This document shows, one piece after another, positions 26,141 through 34,198 of a stretch of 64,000 nt of DNA. The stretch covers positions 149,736 through 213,735 of the forward strand of contig DATJPT010000014.1 in the NCBI GenBank assembly GCA_035506275.1, given 5' to 3'. Both the position numbers and the translations under genes were made by a program. This stretch comes from Bacteroidota bacterium. GTDB lineage: Bacteria > Bacteroidota > Ignavibacteria > UBA10030 > UBA8401. The first letter of the stretch is position 1, and each line of letters starts with the position of its first letter. The notes below the pieces were generated by a model. It was given only the letters and a program-made list of their open reading frames with translations, searched no databases and had not been told where the DNA came from.

Positions 26141-26749
26141 ATGAAATCAAAAGGTCTCGTCGTCGCGTTATCGATCATCGGGGGAATCCTTCTTGTTGGA
26201 ATTTTGACGGTGATGTGGGGAGTTGGAGTCTACAATAAACTTGTCGCAATGAACGAAGGAGTGAATGGCGCATGGTCGCAGGTCCAAAATCAGTATCAGA
26301 GGCGGTTCGATCTGATACCGAACCTCGTTGAGACCGTTAAAGGGTATGCGACTCACGAAAAGGAGACGTTAGAGCAGGTTGTCGAAGCGCGCGCAAAAGT
26401 TGGTCAAATGACAATATCTCCGGAAGTCCTGAAAAACCCCCAGGCGTTTCAGATGTTCGAGAAAGCTCAAGGGGATCTGACAGCTGCGCTATCCCGCCTC
26501 ATGGTCGTCACGGAGAATTATCCGAACCTCAAAGCGAACGAAAATTTTCTCCAACTGCAGGCTCAGTTAGAAGGAACTGAAAATCGCATAGCGGTCGAGC
26601 GGAAGCATTTCAACGAGGTGGTTCAGGGCTATAACACTGCGATCAAAACCATCCCGACCTCTTTGATCGCCGGATTCGGCGGATTCGGTCCCAAAGCCTA
26701 TTTCCAGGCACAAACTGGCGCAGAAGAAGCGCCCAAAGTAAAATTCTAG
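26141..26749 (+). CDS. lemA: LemA family protein
   Basis: A 202-residue membrane-anchored protein. An N-terminal helix (residues 7-28) is followed by the LemA core: NEGVNGAWSQVQNQYQRRFDLIPNLVETVKGY, NLKANENFLQLQAQLEGTENRIAVER and FNEVVQGYNTAIKTIPTSLIAG. The function of LemA proteins is unclear; they are usually paired with TPM-domain proteins, as here. The AAGGAG site 10 bases before the ATG supports the start. Confidence 0.93.
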   Translation: MKSKGLVVALSIIGGILLVGILTVMWGVGVYNKLVAMNEGVNGAWSQVQNQYQRRFDLIPNLVETVKGYATHEKETLEQVVEARAKVGQMTISPEVLKNPQAFQMFEKAQGDLTAALSRLMVVTENYPNLKANENFLQLQAQLEGTENRIAVERKHFNEVVQGYNTAIKTIPTSLIAGFGGFGPKAYFQAQTGAEEAPKVKF

Positions 26750-26778
26750 GAACGGCGAGAGCTCTCACTCATCATTCA

Positions 26779-27534
26779 ATGGCAAGACAGAACCTTTTTA
26801 TCCTCTTTCTATTGTTTCTGATCGCAGTGCTCCCGCTGCGGGCGCAGGAATTATCGGTACCGCAGCTGCACGAACATGTCACCGATTTTACCAACACGCT
26901 GGAATATTCCGAATGGCGCGCCCTGGAAAATGAGTTAAAGCAGTTCGAAGACAGCACGTCTACGCAAATTGCCGTCGTCATCATCCCTTCGTTGCAAGGG
27001 AATGACATTACCGACTTCTCGCTGAAAATTGCAGAAGCGAACAAGATCGGTAGGAAAGGAAAGGACAACGGTCTTCTGATCCTGATCGCCAAGAATGATA
27101 AAGAGATCAGGTTCGAGGTCGGTTACGGTCTCGAGGGATCGTTGCCCGATGCGTTGTGCGATCAGATCATCCGGAATGTGATGCGTCCGCGGTTCCGCGA
27201 AGGGGATTTTTACGGCGGTATTGGCGCGGCGGTCGAAGATGTCATCAAGGCAACGAAGGGGGAATACAAAGCAGAGCCTCGTTCGAAATATAAGATCACA
27301 AATTTCGGCGGCGTACTGCTGGCGATTATCTTGTTCTTTGTCTTTGGCACATCCATGTTCGGCGGCAGACGCCGGTACGGTATTTCATCGCGCGGTTACT
27401 ATCGCTCAGGATATTGGGGAGGAGGATTCGGGGGCGGGGGATTTTTCGGCGGGGGAGGCTTTGGCGGTGGCGGCGGGGGATGGTCCGGCGGCGGCGGTTC
27501 ATTCGGCGGCGGCGGCGCAAGCGGAAGCTGGTAA
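26779..27534 (+). CDS. TPM-domain protein with glycine-rich tail (YgcG-like)
   Basis: A 251-residue exported protein. A signal peptide ([17 protein letters not shown]) leads to a TPM domain (residues about 25-160: [57 protein letters not shown]). A single membrane helix (about 180-198) is followed by a tail made almost wholly of Gly with Phe, Trp and Ser, ending GGGASGSW. Such tails are usual in this family. It forms the common lemA-TPM pair and may act in membrane protein quality control, which is an inference. Confidence 0.88.
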
Positions 27535-28600: not shown

Positions 28601-31174
28601 ATGCCGTTAAAGCGACGCCCGAAACATCGTGCATCAAAGTATGGCACCAACCGGCCATTGGGCCAAAGGGATAGTATTGTTCGGACGAATAAACTCTTCG
28701 AACTTTTCGTCCATCTGGCGGAAAAAATATTTGACGGTCAGAAGGCTGGGAGGATCTCTGAGGGAGTTATTTCGTCTTTCTTAGCGCAGGTTTTGCATGG
28801 CGTTGACGGAGTTGCTGCGGCATTGTATAGCATCGATGGCGATGTGATCCGGCTGGCGGGAGAATATGCTTATCCAAAACGGTTTCGTCATTTGCTTGTA
28901 CAATATCGACTCCGTGACTCTCATCTCAAAAAGGTTGTACGGAGAAAGAAAGCGGTCGTCACAACATTTGAGAATGAAAAAATATTTCCGCCTCAGTCCG
29001 GTCTTCCTGCCCGATTTCGCTCGCTTCCTGTCGTCGAGATCCCGGTCCTCGACGGCCGCCGTGTAGCTGGTGTTGTAGAACTCGTCGGCGTTTCCCTTGC
29101 CGGGCTCGTCGGGATGGAAGAACTTTTCTTCGAAAAACTGAGCCGGTTTTCCCTTCCGCTTCTTCACGCCTTCTCTGAGAAAAAATCGCGGCGGATAGAA
29201 TCCCCCCAATATGAACCGATCATCGAAGGGATGGCAGACGGAGTCGTCATCGTCCGCGACTTGAGGATCCTTTACGTCAATGCCGCTCTAAGAAGTATGT
29301 TCGGGTACGACAGCGCTGCTCCTCTTCTCAATAAGAGCATAGAGACGATCATCGCTCCGGAGGATCGGGAGCGGGTCATCGAGAGAAGCAGGAGCAGGAG
29401 CGAAGGGAAAAATGTCCCCTCACGCTATGAATACAAGGCTATGAGAAAAAACGGGACATTGTTCGATGTTGAGGTGGTGGTCAGCGCTGTTCCGTATGAG
29501 GGGGGACAGGCTGTCGTGGCGCTGCACAGGGATATCACGCTGAAACGGGCCATTGAAAAAGAACTGCAGCAGTCCGAACAGATGTTCCGCAATGTGATCG
29601 ACGGTGTGCTCACGGTCGGCGATGCGCTCGTTCTCACGAACCTCGAAGGAAAAGTTCTGCAGGTGAACAACGAGTTTGAACGGCTGACGGGCATCAAAAA
29701 ATCCGATGCGATCGGAAAAGAATTTCCGTACGAATGGCTTCTCGACGAAGAGATGGCCCGTTACGTGCTGTGGATAAAAGAACTTCGGGAGAAGAAGAGC
29801 CTCCGGGACTTCGATATTCATTGGAAAGATACGGGCGGGAAAATGATCTCCGTCAGCATGAACACGACGCTGCTTTACAATGCGCTCAATCGCCCCGTCG
29901 CCATGATGAACATGGCACGCGACATCAGCGAGCGAAAGAACCTGGAAGAGATCAACCGCCTTCAGCTTGAACGGCTTCGCGTGCTGTATGAACTGAGCAG
30001 GACACTCACGTCGCTTCTCAAAATTAACGAAATTGCAGATGCCGTATACCGGCACCTCGTCGAGGTCCTTCCGTTCGACGCTTTTTTCATAGACCTCTTT
30101 GAGGAAACGACCGGAACGGTGCGGAACATTATATGCTACGACACCATCAACGAGAAAAAAGTAAAGGTCCAACCGGACAAAGGAGAAAGTGCGATTCGTC
30201 CGGGAACCGGGATCGCAAAAGTGATCGAGGCGAGACAATCACTTCTTGAAAACCGGGAAGCGGACTCTCCGGAGCCGGTGCGCCATCCGTTCGGCGACAA
30301 GGGCCGGCGCTCGCTCTCGCTCCTATACATTCCGATGTTCTCGAGGGAAAAAACGATAGGCGTTCTGTCGATACAAAGTTATACGCCGAATCTCTACAAG
30401 GAATCGCACATTCGTCTTCTTGAAAGTTTTGCGAACCTGGCCGCCATTGCATTCGAAAAGGCCAAGCTCTACGAAGAGACAATCTCAAAGTCGATCCAGC
30501 TCCAAAATCGGAATAAAGAGCTGGACGATTTCACCTACGTTGTCTCCCACGATTTGAAGGAGCCGTTGATCACCGTCGAGGGGTACAGCAGGATTCTCCT
30601 CAAAGATCATGTGCAAGACAAGAACAGCGCTGCCTCAGAATACATTCAATCGATCATTCAGTCGTGCTCCAGAATGAAAGGGTTGATCGATGACCTTCTG
30701 GTGCTCTCCCGCGTTTCGCGTTTTTCGGAACTCACGGAAACGGTCTCGCTGAATGATGTGATCAACGAAGTCCTTGATGATTTGAAATTTTCGATCCAGG
30801 AAAAGCGTGCAGAGATTGTGGCTCCCCGGGGCGAGTTTTCGTATCAATGCAATCCGACTCAAATCAAACTTGTGCTGCGGAATCTTATCTCGAATGGGAT
30901 CAAGTTTAACAGCGATGAACGCCCCTTTGTCAAGATCACCATCGAGGAAAACGAAAAAAGGGTTCTTATTTCTGTCCAAGACAACGGCATCGGCATCGAA
31001 AAAAAGTTTTTTGACAAGATATTTGTTATCTTTCAACGATTGAACACCGATCACGAGGGCAGCGGAGCCGGCCTGGCGATCGTCAAAAAGATCGTTGAGC
31101 TCTACCAAGGGCAAATCTGGCTTGAATCGGAGATCGGGAAAGGGACGACGTTCTATGTTTCCTTGCCCAAATAA
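28601..31174 (+). CDS. Multi-sensor soluble histidine kinase (GAF-PAS-PAS-GAF)
   Basis: An 857-residue kinase with no membrane helix. Domains in order: a GAF-like domain (about 35-195), PAS (205-325, VVIVRDLRILYVNAALRSMFGY), PAS (330-450), a second GAF (465-635), the dimerisation domain with phospho-His H650 (YVVSHDLKEPL), and the ATPase with N box (LVLRNLISNGIKFN), G1 (DNGIGI) and G2 (GSGAGLAIVKKI). The FTYVVSHDLKEPL H-box is of the phytochrome-like kinase group. The ligand is unknown. It follows aroF by 15 bases and precedes a response regulator. No Shine-Dalgarno is evident, so the start is uncertain. Confidence 0.9.
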   Translation: MPLKRRPKHRASKYGTNRPLGQRDSIVRTNKLFELFVHLAEKIFDGQKAGRISEGVISSFLAQVLHGVDGVAAALYSIDGDVIRLAGEYAYPKRFRHLLVQYRLRDSHLKKVVRRKKAVVTTFENEKIFPPQSGLPARFRSLPVVEIPVLDGRRVAGVVELVGVSLAGLVGMEELFFEKLSRFSLPLLHAFSEKKSRRIESPQYEPIIEGMADGVVIVRDLRILYVNAALRSMFGYDSAAPLLNKSIETIIAPEDRERVIERSRSRSEGKNVPSRYEYKAMRKNGTLFDVEVVVSAVPYEGGQAVVALHRDITLKRAIEKELQQSEQMFRNVIDGVLTVGDALVLTNLEGKVLQVNNEFERLTGIKKSDAIGKEFPYEWLLDEEMARYVLWIKELREKKSLRDFDIHWKDTGGKMISVSMNTTLLYNALNRPVAMMNMARDISERKNLEEINRLQLERLRVLYELSRTLTSLLKINEIADAVYRHLVEVLPFDAFFIDLFEETTGTVRNIICYDTINEKKVKVQPDKGESAIRPGTGIAKVIEARQSLLENREADSPEPVRHPFGDKGRRSLSLLYIPMFSREKTIGVLSIQSYTPNLYKESHIRLLESFANLAAIAFEKAKLYEETISKSIQLQNRNKELDDFTYVVSHDLKEPLITVEGYSRILLKDHVQDKNSAASEYIQSIIQSCSRMKGLIDDLLVLSRVSRFSELTETVSLNDVINEVLDDLKFSIQEKRAEIVAPRGEFSYQCNPTQIKLVLRNLISNGIKFNSDERPFVKITIEENEKRVLISVQDNGIGIEKKFFDKIFVIFQRLNTDHEGSGAGLAIVKKIVELYQGQIWLESEIGKGTTFYVSLPK

Positions 31175-31232: not shown

Positions 31233-31922
31233 GTGGAATCCAGTGCAGTGAAAGAACGGATCAATATTTTAATGATCGAGGACAACGACGACTTCGGCAA
31301 ACTCGTTGAACTTTATTTGTCCCATCATCCGGATTACATTTTTAATCTCGTATGGAAGAAGAGCGGCGAAGAGGGGCTCAGCGAATTCGACGCGAACTCA
31401 AACTACCACGTCATCTTGATGGATTACAACCTGCCGGGGATAAACGGCGTTGAGGTGACCAGTGCTTTGGTGCAGCGCGGCATCACCGTCCCGATCGTCT
31501 TTATTACCGTGAACCGCGATTTCAACCTTGCCGTCGAGACAATGAAGCTCGGCGTGGAAGATTTTCTTGTGAAGGAAGAGATCTCGACGCCGGTTCTGCC
31601 GAGAACGATCGTCAGCGTGCTGGAGCGTGTGCGATTGCGGCAGCAATTGTCCGCCCTTGAAATCAGCAGTCAAAGGATCGAAGCGATCCAGGAGTTGGTG
31701 CTGGGCATCAGCCAGGATCTCGTGACGCCCCTCGATGCGATGAAGAAGAATGTCGATGTCCTGATGCGCAGTCAGGTTGCGACGGACATGAAGATGTACC
31801 TCCGCATCATCAATGAGAATGTCGAGCGGATGCAGCTGAAGCTGAGCCGTTTGAAATCACTGAAAGAGGATAAGACGGTTCAGTATATCAAGAACATCAA
31901 AATGATCGATATCTCCGACTAA
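31233..31922 (+). CDS. Response regulator with a histidine-kinase-like C-terminal region
   Basis: A 229-residue protein. Residues 10-125 form a receiver domain: acidic pocket E16/D17, acceptor D64 (ILMDYNLPG), switch Thr in FITVN and Lys in FLVKEE. No DNA-binding domain follows. Instead, residues 145-210 are helical and align by eye with a kinase dimerisation (HisKA) helix pair: LVLGISQDLVTPLDAMKKNVDVLM, in which Q161 stands where kinases have the phospho-His. No ATPase domain follows. It is the probable partner of the kinase just upstream (58-base gap). Confidence 0.8.
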   Translation: MESSAVKERINILMIEDNDDFGKLVELYLSHHPDYIFNLVWKKSGEEGLSEFDANSNYHVILMDYNLPGINGVEVTSALVQRGITVPIVFITVNRDFNLAVETMKLGVEDFLVKEEISTPVLPRTIVSVLERVRLRQQLSALEISSQRIEAIQELVLGISQDLVTPLDAMKKNVDVLMRSQVATDMKMYLRIINENVERMQLKLSRLKSLKEDKTVQYIKNIKMIDISD

Positions 31923-31934
31923 CCGGAAACTCGT

Positions 31935-32393
31935 ATGGCGTTATTTTCCAGTCATCCATTGTTGACCGAAGCTGAGCGTAAGAAGATCGCGGCGACCATC
32001 GCCGAGGTGGAACAAGGAACCGAAGGAGAGATCCGGGTCGGTATCCGAAAAAGGAGGGCGTGGGGCGAACGGAAATTGACGCTCCATCAATTCGCGCTCA
32101 AAAATTTCTATGAGCATGGAATGGACAAGACGAAGCACAAGAACGGAGTGCTCCTGTTTTTCTCGATGAGTGAACGTTCATTCCAAATCATCGCGGATGA
32201 GGGGATCCATAACAAAGTGACCGATCGGTACTGGGATGATCTGGCTGCTTCGATGACCGGCCACTTTAAGGAGAAGCGCTTCTGCGACGGCATTTGCGAA
32301 GCGGTGAAAGAGGTGGGGAAAAAGCTGCGTGAGGAATTTCCGCGCACCTCCAACGACACAGACGAATTGCCGAATGACGTGTCAATAACGTAA
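31935..32393 (+). CDS. Cytoplasmic TPM-domain protein
   Basis: A 152-residue protein consisting of a TPM domain alone: TEAERKKIAATIAEVEQGTEGEIRVGI, KNGVLLFFSMSERSFQIIADEGI and MTGHFKEKRFCDGICEAVKEVGKKL. There is neither a signal peptide nor a membrane helix, unlike the TPM protein at 26779. The charged tail is unstructured. Its position between a response regulator (12 bases before) and an amidase (23 bases after) suggests an operon. Confidence 0.8.
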   Translation: MALFSSHPLLTEAERKKIAATIAEVEQGTEGEIRVGIRKRRAWGERKLTLHQFALKNFYEHGMDKTKHKNGVLLFFSMSERSFQIIADEGIHNKVTDRYWDDLAASMTGHFKEKRFCDGICEAVKEVGKKLREEFPRTSNDTDELPNDVSIT

Positions 32394-32416
32394 TTGCGAT
32401 TGAGAAATCGAATAGT

Positions 32417-33277
32417 ATGAAGTTGAGAGTAGCCGTTGCCCAGGTTGATGCGGCCGTCGGCAACGTGGAAAAGAACATCGTGCGCCACGTCGCTTTCGTT
32501 AAAAAGGCGATTGCGAAAAAGGCCGACATCGTCGTTTTCCCGGAATTGAGTCTTACCGGCTATTCGGTGCGGGACCTCAATTGGGATCTGGCGATCAATG
32601 TCGCCAGGCCGGATATTCTCAATCCCCTTTTAAGGCTCAGCAAGTCGATCACGGTCATTGCAGGCGGAGTCGAGGAGCGGAAGAATTTTGGCCTCTACAA
32701 TTCTGCTTTCGTGATGGAAGACGGAAAGATCTTTTCCGGCCATCAAAAAATTTATCCGCCGACCTACGGCATGTTCGAGGAAATGCGCTACTTCAGCCAG
32801 GGGACGAGCGCGCGCTGCTTCAACTCCAAACATGGCCGGCTCGGCATTTTGATCTGCGAAGATTTGTGGCACATTTCACTTCCGTATATTCTCGCGAGCG
32901 ACGGGGCGGAGGTCCTCATTACGATTGCTGCAAGTCCGACGCGAATTTCCGGCGCTTCGGAAAAGCTTCCGTCGGCGACCATCAACAGTGAACATCACAA
33001 AGCGTACGCGCGGCTTCTCAGCTCATATCTCGTTTTTTGCAATCGAGTCGGGATCGAGGACGGCATCAATTTCTGGGGAGGGTCGGAAATCGTCGACCCG
33101 TCCGGCGAGATCATCGCATCCGCAAAATTATTTGATGAAGACTTGATCTTCGCCGATTTAGATGAAGATGCTGTCCGGCGGGCGCGCCGCCTATCACGGC
33201 ACTTTGTCGATGAATCGATCGATTTTACCGTTGAGCAATTGCGGCGCGTGCGAGACAGCAGGAAAGAGCAGGAGTAG
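32417..33277 (+). CDS. Carbon-nitrogen hydrolase (nitrilase superfamily)
   Basis: A 286-residue amidase with the Glu-Lys-Cys triad at E43 (VVFPELSLTGY), K111 (HQKIYPPTYGMF) and C147 (LICEDLWH). The motifs SLTGYSVRDL and GHQKIYPPTYGMFEE resemble the glutaminase domain of glutamine-dependent NAD synthetase, but no synthetase domain follows, so it is a free amidase. The substrate is unknown. It differs clearly from the beta-ureidopropionase at 25076. Confidence 0.85.
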   Translation: MKLRVAVAQVDAAVGNVEKNIVRHVAFVKKAIAKKADIVVFPELSLTGYSVRDLNWDLAINVARPDILNPLLRLSKSITVIAGGVEERKNFGLYNSAFVMEDGKIFSGHQKIYPPTYGMFEEMRYFSQGTSARCFNSKHGRLGILICEDLWHISLPYILASDGAEVLITIAASPTRISGASEKLPSATINSEHHKAYARLLSSYLVFCNRVGIEDGINFWGGSEIVDPSGEIIASAKLFDEDLIFADLDEDAVRRARRLSRHFVDESIDFTVEQLRRVRDSRKEQE

Positions 33278-33343
33278 GTCGGTTGAAAGTGCCTCGAGGT
33301 TTCGCTACCTTTCAATGAAAATGATTTTGTGGAGCGGTGTGCT

Positions 33344-34198
33344 ATGAATACGATGAAGACAGCGTTCTTAATGACGCTGATGATGGTGCTCTTGCTTCTG
33401 ATCGGCGAAGCATTCGGCGGAGGACAGGGATTAGTTCTCGCGTTCATGTTCTCACTCCTCATGAATTTTGGCATGTATTGGTTCTCGGATAAAGTTGTGC
33501 TCATGATGTACCATGCAAAAGAAGTGACTGAAATGGAAGAGCCGCGACTGGTCCAGATGATAAGGAAATTGGCCGCGCAGGCACAGCTTCCGATGCTGAA
33601 CGTATATATCATTCCCGATGAAACGCCGAATGCCTTTGCCACCGGCCGGAATCCGTCTCATGCTGCGATTGCCGTCACTTCGGGAATACTTAAACTGCTC
33701 AACGATGATGAGTTGGAAGGCGTGCTTTCGCACGAGCTAGCCCATGTCAAGCACAGGGATATGCTGACCGGAACCATCGTTGCAGCGATGGTCGGGACTA
33801 TCACGTTCATTGCCAGGATGGCCGGCTGGGCTATGATGTTCTCAGGCGGACGGCGCGATGAGAGAAATTCCGGGAACGGACTATCTGAGCTCCTGCTCCT
33901 CATCCTCGCGCCGATCGCGGCGGTCCTCCTTCAGCTTGCGATCTCGCGTTCTCGCGAATTTGCCGCGGATGCCGGCGGTTCAACGATTAGCGGCAAGCCT
34001 CGGAGCCTGGCAAACGCATTAAAGAAACTTGAACAGGGATCGGAACGCACCGCTCTGGAAAATGCCGGACCGGCGACCGCACACATGTTTATTGTCAACC
34101 CTCTTCGAAGCGGGGGCATTATGAAATTATTTTCAACCCATCCGCCGATAGAAGAACGCATTGAGCGGCTGGAAGAGATCGCCGTCCACGGAATGTGA
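33344..34198 (+). CDS. htpX: M48 membrane metalloprotease HtpX
   Basis: A 284-residue zinc protease of the inner membrane that helps clear damaged membrane proteins. Two N-terminal helices (residues 5-48) precede the zinc site HELAH at 130-134; further helices (about 150-200) and the third ligand region EFAAD follow. An open frame continues back to a GTG at 33329, but the ATG at 33344 has GGAG at a good distance and gives the usual N-terminus. Confidence 0.92.
   Translation: MNTMKTAFLMTLMMVLLLLIGEAFGGGQGLVLAFMFSLLMNFGMYWFSDKVVLMMYHAKEVTEMEEPRLVQMIRKLAAQAQLPMLNVYIIPDETPNAFATGRNPSHAAIAVTSGILKLLNDDELEGVLSHELAHVKHRDMLTGTIVAAMVGTITFIARMAGWAMMFSGGRRDERNSGNGLSELLLLILAPIAAVLLQLAISRSREFAADAGGSTISGKPRSLANALKKLEQGSERTALENAGPATAHMFIVNPLRSGGIMKLFSTHPPIEERIERLEEIAVHGM

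Follow-up and report, generated by a model that had tools for sequence, protein, structure and literature searches.

A response regulator with a histidine-less DHp domain and a conserved C-terminal tail, and its histidine-bearing paralogue

Response regulators are classed by their output domain, and a DHp domain that comes without a kinase is usually filed as an incomplete kinase. Receiver-containing HisKA proteins without HATPase are already known in archaea, where response regulators of the layout REC-(PAS/GAF)n-HisKA, such as AF_1472, were described in 2018 (PMC5847659; here and below, papers are cited for the passages that concern these proteins). In its passages on the archaeal HATPase-less HisKA proteins, that paper proposes phosphoacceptor, phosphatase or protein-interaction roles for them, and states that none of the receiver-containing class had been studied experimentally. 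A named bin for HisKA proteins without HATPase exists in P2CS as 'incomplete' HK or 'phosphotransfer protein', but it is an annotation and not a family, and its phosphotransfer class leaves out receiver-bearing proteins (PMC2716373). LvrB of Leptospira (PDB 8vc9), a REC-DHp-CA kinase in which an N-terminal REC drives the DHp domain via a helical linker, is described as a prototype of receiver-controlled kinases (PMC13269768); a receiver can thus drive a DHp domain. Spo0B and ChpT are dimeric four-helix phosphotransferases of the DHp type, and ChpT, whose C-terminal domain is ATPase-like but atypical and whose His is active, is incapable of autophosphorylation with ATP (PMC3433190).

Here, we describe a protein encoded in the window (the whole stretch of DNA that was analysed, 64,000 nucleotides long) that fits the layout of REC plus HisKA without HATPase (Table 1). 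Its receiver matches PF00072 over residues 12-115 (Pfam scan, E 3.5e-18) and carries Asp64, as an earlier note made from the DNA letters had it. The same note placed a HisKA helix pair at residues 145-210, limits that prove right to a few residues: PF00512 aligns with residues 153-207, and in the AlphaFold2 model the receiver is followed by helices 121-179 and 184-212, predicted to form a hairpin as in DHp domains (21-sequence alignment; mean pLDDT 81.6, residues 216-229 below 50). The profile search and the structure prediction of the protein alone, which the note had proposed as checks, thus gave HisKA similarity and a helix hairpin. The full-length window protein scores E 2.5e-4 and 21.5 bits against PF00512, and its C-terminal 95 residues scanned alone E 2.9e-5 and 24.5 bits, both under the curated cut-off of 26.9 bits; all 21 members of the family alignment match the profile at E up to 0.1 (best E 2.7e-10), which rules out a chance resemblance to HisKA. 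That Gln161 takes the place of the phospho-acceptor His is confirmed by the alignment column, with Pro166 and Leu167 at positions +5 and +6. Pfam and whole-genome scans found no HATPase match in the frame, and a TPM-domain gene comes next, so the claim that no ATPase domain follows the helix pair also stands. Two features of a histidine kinase, the phospho-acceptor His and HATPase_c, are therefore both missing. A frameshifted or truncated kinase is ruled out, since the 42-row clade to which the protein belongs (see below) shares one end point; the next gene begins 12 bases on. The window genome holds 42 HisKA matches, of which 36 lie in frames that also have HATPase and six do not, the window protein being one of the six. 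An NCBIfam scan gave generic regulator matches only, far under their cut-offs.

Table 1. Positions in the window of the type A gene, its parts and its neighbours
Feature	Position	Strand	Basis or remark
Type A gene: REC, coiled-coil helix, His-less DHp, conserved tail	31233..31922	+	229 aa, GTG start
Receiver domain, residues about 8-118	31254..31586	+	D64 codon 31422-31424; PF00072
Linker helix, residues 121-150, running on into DHp helix 1	31593..31682	+	AlphaFold2 helix 121-179
Degenerate DHp/HisKA helix pair, residues 151-212	31683..31868	+	PF00512 at 153-207; predicted helices
Gln161 codon, phospho-acceptor His position	31713..31715	+	sequence and alignment column
Conserved C-terminal tail, residues 212-229	31866..31919	+	Y218 and M224 in 42/42 type A rows
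PAS/GAF histidine kinase, intact HisKA and HATPase, likely phosphodonor	28601..31174	+	Pfam
TPM-domain protein, next gene	31935..32393	+	PF04536 E 4.8e-19; putative role only
LemA-family protein, neighbour	26141..26749	+	PF04011 E 7.8e-62; putative role only
TPM-domain protein, neighbour	26779..27534	+	PF04536 E 9.1e-42; putative role only

Among the described systems, the archaeal class is alike in having a receiver and a HisKA domain without ATPase and in being proposed to dimerise and bind proteins, but it has PAS and/or GAF domains between REC and HisKA, and related HK-like proteins keep the His, in the account given in PMC5847659. Pfam gave no PAS or GAF match in the window protein, where a single helix joins REC directly to DHp; a conserved tail comes after, and the His is lost in its subfamily, type A. 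The earlier note knew of no standard name for this architecture, which is nearly right, except that the archaeal class had already been described. LvrB is a solved match across both REC and DHp (phmmer E 1.7e-7, residues 44-215; Foldseek E 2.7e-9) but, unlike the window protein, has an ATPase domain and is a kinase (PMC13269768). The ATPase-like domain and the active His of ChpT (PMC3433190) are both absent from type A, and the window protein has no counterpart of the bundle His found in Spo0B and ChpT, which the paralogue described next does have.

With the window protein as query, 60 related genomes yielded close orthologues as well as a set of weaker matches. An alignment of 30 of the former and 19 of the latter separated two subfamilies, the window-like type A and type B. 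In type B the sequence is VVTVCHEFNNPLAAIKIS, with the H-box intact and yet the ATPase also missing; the H-box is an invariant HEFNNPL, with the His in 30/30 rows. One type B relative (L051) reaches 29.3 bits against PF00512, over the cut-off, and the model of a type B relative has the same helix pair with a pLDDT of 86.5. The fetched loci contained 118 non-redundant ATPase-less ORFs, and the 105 with a receiver entered a tree; the 13 left out had no scored receiver or were too short, and include two fragments, a piece of type A (L163) and a piece of type B (L053). Type A (42 rows, support 100/98) and type B (30 rows, 100/100) are joined as sisters (98/84), and family f10 comes next outside the two (88/82, with the root placed at the midpoint only). 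Type A spans five families of the order and one family outside it.

The two sister clades differ in what they conserve. The His column holds His in all type B rows, in 10/10 f10 proteins and in 23/23 others, but in only 3/42 type A rows (L011, L016 and L024); at position 161 the nine commonest type A residues are Q9 K8 G6 D5 S3 H3 T3 N2 A2. Mean conservation in type A versus type B is 0.52 versus 0.98 for the H-box, 0.83 versus 0.28 for the tail and 0.67 versus 0.68 for REC. Beyond the H-box, residues 169-179 of helix 1 score 0.41 in type A, the worst conserved helix segment there, against 0.82 in type B. Position 159 is I/V/M and position 163 I/L/F/V in 42/42 type A rows, and P166 is kept in 39/42. 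Since the buried-type positions stay hydrophobic and the proline is kept, the fold is under selection, while the exposed acceptor face is free to vary.

No other part of the type A clade is as well conserved as the tail, at about residues 212-229, which was missed by the earlier note. Its motif is Y-x5-M-[IL]-D-L, within the type A consensus DKTVxYIKDIKMIDLS. Scored as Y-x(4,7)-[MI]-[IVLFM]-[DKN]-[LIFT] within the last 45 residues, the motif is present in 42/42 type A rows, the window protein included, in 0/30 type B rows, in 10/10 f10 proteins and in 19/23 others, the last figure being biased by the tail-bearing profiles with which these others were for the most part collected. All of the 30 type A loci that were gathered with the full-length protein have the tail. 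Type A has thus given up the His but not the tail, and type B the tail but not the His. As the outside relatives carry both, it is simplest to assume an ancestor that had both and a duplication after which each copy lost one, which suggests that an old protein with both functions was split into two specialised ones. That type A could instead be a decaying kinase remnant without function we find scarcely credible: the loss of His and ATPase and the freely varying H-box face would fit such decay, but it is contradicted by the tail motif kept in every row, by a receiver in which the four site residues checked are intact in 38/42 rows (D64 in 40, T92 in 41 and K114 in 40 of the 42), and by the spread over five families of the order and one beyond it.

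A search with the DHp and tail profile against solved sequences gave 34 matches, all of which stop at or before profile position 85 of 96, and the tail therefore has no match among them. Searches of an open-access library yielded no description of the conserved tail, of a bacterial REC-DHp-tail family, of the reciprocal A/B loss or of an ATPase-less DHp family of such kind, and a literal search there for the strings HEINNPL, HEFNNPL and HELNNPL gave no paper. VIA-align of the window protein matched receiver domains, so that the DHp part was not probed by it, and plasmid tblastn was dominated by ordinary response regulators.

What feeds the receiver is suggested by the gene neighbourhoods. A same-strand HATPase-bearing ORF lies upstream of type A in 32/42 rows, which makes this kinase the likely phosphodonor; in some rows a receiver-only gene stands between the two. 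No such ORF was seen in 9/42 rows, with 879 to 6260 bp of upstream DNA examined, and one row (L164) has too little upstream DNA to judge. The receiver site is damaged in four type A rows (L161, L083, L165 and L084), all with intact tails, and all four fall among the nine rows where no HATPase ORF was seen upstream (for independent rows the probability of this would be 0.0011; three of the four share one clade, which together with L084 makes about two independent events). For L161 and L165 the upstream DNA covers 879 and 1008 bp, and some of the positive rows have their HATPase about 1.0 kb away. That the receiver site sometimes erodes where no kinase ORF was seen, while the tail persists, has the direction expected if the kinase is the input and the tail the output. 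Across genomes, the kinase cluster upstream of type A ranges from about 690 to about 2015 aa (L070, L076, L078, L081 and similar loci).

The same neighbourhoods bear on the earlier note's proposal that the protein binds the dimerisation domain of the upstream kinase. The His-less DHp domain would pair with that domain, as heterodimer or decoy, and tune the kinase. The frequent linkage to a HATPase ORF speaks for such pairing, and kinase-binding accessory proteins do exist, as RocA binds CsrS (PMC6635533, in the part cited). However, the nine rows in which no such ORF was seen still keep the DHp region and the tail, the most conserved part is the tail and not the DHp surface, and the same tail occurs on His-bearing relatives that adjoin an NtrC-type gene (L184 and L185). 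As the main function of type A, we consider pairing with the kinase unsupported and unlikely. The note's other suggestion, an inert docking partner, fared better: an adaptor or docking role is favoured here over an enzymatic one.

DHp domains normally bind receivers, and a paper of 2000 on EnvZ reportedly belongs to the reports of phosphatase activity in ATPase-less DHp proteins. The phosphatase motif of DHp domains is E/D-x-x-T/N, and Asp162 and Thr165 of the window protein occupy its positions. It is conceivable that the type A domain binds receivers without chemistry, or has residual phosphatase activity, and so acts as a brake on an NtrC-type receiver or on one that we take to be Rcp1-like. 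The residue after the His position is E or D in 33/42 type A rows, and the receiver-only genes next to some type A genes would offer a target. The +4 position, however, varies (E8 T6 S6 A4 P4 L3 and other residues), so the motif is not kept across type A and we reject a phosphatase that acts through it; the poor conservation of residues 169-179 also speaks against such a role. We regard such a brake as improbable, to about the same degree as pairing with the kinase. A version of the kinase HK853 without its ATPase domain did show phosphatase activity in vitro (PMC7005713, as reported in the part cited), which counts in favour of a brake; on this precedent we would assign the chemistry to type B and not to type A.

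Type B genes lie at separate loci from type A genes and have different neighbours. At least one receiver protein is divergently encoded upstream in 27/30 type B rows; of the remaining rows, one has 304 bp only and two have no receiver protein in about 1.5 kb. In the examples read, one of these neighbours is CheY-like and another is a sigma-54 activator of the NtrC type. Type B is probably a Spo0B-like phosphotransferase, or else a phosphatase, that would work with these adjacent CheY-like and NtrC-type receivers; Spo0B and ChpT (PMC3433190) serve as the model. The His-bearing tail proteins of f10 and f57 (L185 and L184) adjoin a same-strand NtrC-type gene, and other His-bearing members adjoin a kinase (L176, L179, L182 and L186) or a receiver-only gene.

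Both types occur together in 41/60 genomes, while one genome holds A alone, one holds B alone and 17 hold neither, so that 58/60 have both or neither. Occurrence was judged from the scores with a type A query versus a type B query; for unfetched places and the type B of G005 the score alone decided, G013 and G043 hold type A fragments only, and the type A gene of G035 has internal stops. As these genomes share ancestry, the count describes an association of A and B and is not proof of partnership. Sister clades with reciprocal losses, found in the same genomes, would be expected if the ancestral module were rebuilt by a mixed dimer of A and B, with the His coming from one chain and the tail from the other. 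Given the confounding by ancestry and the different loci and neighbours of the two genes, we think such a dimer very unlikely. A bolder proposal, which we hold to be quite unlikely as a whole, is that duplication split chemistry (B) from tail docking (A), that A and B cooperate, possibly in a mixed four-helix dimer, that a two-component output can consist of a kinase scaffold that lacks catalysis and carries a docking tail, and that the class, present in two phyla or more, has gone unnoticed because its members were taken for broken kinases.

The reading we favour, with a somewhat better than even chance of being right, is that type A is a non-enzymatic, phosphorylation-gated dimeric adaptor, in which the neighbouring kinase feeds the receiver and the tail is the output. 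It is favoured by the conservation, the reciprocal loss, the tree, the pattern of receiver erosion and the predicted helix hairpin. We infer phosphorylation of the receiver, for which the PAS/GAF kinase of the adjacent upstream gene would be the usual donor. The signal would travel along the continuous helix into the DHp pair, whose fold is predicted and which would form a parallel four-helix dimer. With its phospho-acceptor site gone, the bundle may act as a scaffold only, altering the exposure or geometry of the near-invariant tail, which would then bind a partner. On this reading the protein originated by duplication of an ATPase-less REC-DHp-tail ancestor whose His was active, A keeping the tail and B the His. 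Alternatively, the tail could pack on its own bundle; no partner of the tail was found in this analysis, and the low confidence of the tail in the AlphaFold2 model also counts against the favoured reading. As selection preserves the tail better than the phosphorylation chemistry, we argue that the output of type A would be docking and not catalysis. The family shows that ATPase-less DHp proteins are conserved, in at least two reciprocal specialisations, and offers a natural experiment on what a DHp domain does once its chemistry is removed.

Genes for LemA, TPM, TPM, CN_hydrolase and M48 peptidase proteins flank the unit of kinase and type A gene in the window (26141-27534 and 31935-34198), and in f1 and f6 several genes of this set adjoin type A even without the kinase (L080, L083 and L084). 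As partners of the tail, the LemA and TPM proteins were set aside, their genes not lying beside type A in the fetched f2, f3 and f5 loci, and are kept as a lead.

Proteins of the ATPase-less REC-DHp-tail kind extend beyond types A and B. When 296 genomes of the phylum were searched with the A/B alignment, the f10 proteins were found to combine an intact His (ISHELNNPL) with the type A tail. The DHp and tail profile matches 116/245 genomes of the class at E up to 1e-9. Among the matches listed, many short frames are matched through the tail (positions 83-86 of 87), whereas in frames from about 500 aa upwards, which are presumably full kinases, the match stops at about 66-70. The class-wide examples that were fetched have the order receiver-DHp-tail, with the tail at or close to the C terminus; they include one more such protein of the window genome, L167. 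Proteins of the same kind, 231 and 240 aa long (L187 and L188), occur in another phylum (119 genomes, reached via an Acidobacteriia record). There, L189, L190, L191, L195, L197 and L206, of about 400-440 aa or more, join DHp and tail to other N-terminal regions, which gave no match to the REC profile, and some of the long proteins carry a variant tail, EDYADGSSILKLG.

Further ATPase-less HisKA proteins were seen in passing. Two in the window genome, L207 (G000:C18, about 138911) and L208 (G000:C6, about 158421), have no receiver and have hydrophobic, membrane-like N-terminal parts; one of them has KHRINNPL and the other QDAVNNPL, with Asp at the His position. L209 (G000:C6, about 337470), which has a receiver and AHHINNAL, is possibly another branch of the family; in it, a tail-like YAGDQDIIEI precedes one more helix-like stretch. 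The receiver-DHp proteins of L181, where two such genes stand in tandem, and of L116 have HHELNNPM, QHELNNPM or DHELNNPL, and their C-terminal ends differ from the tail described here.
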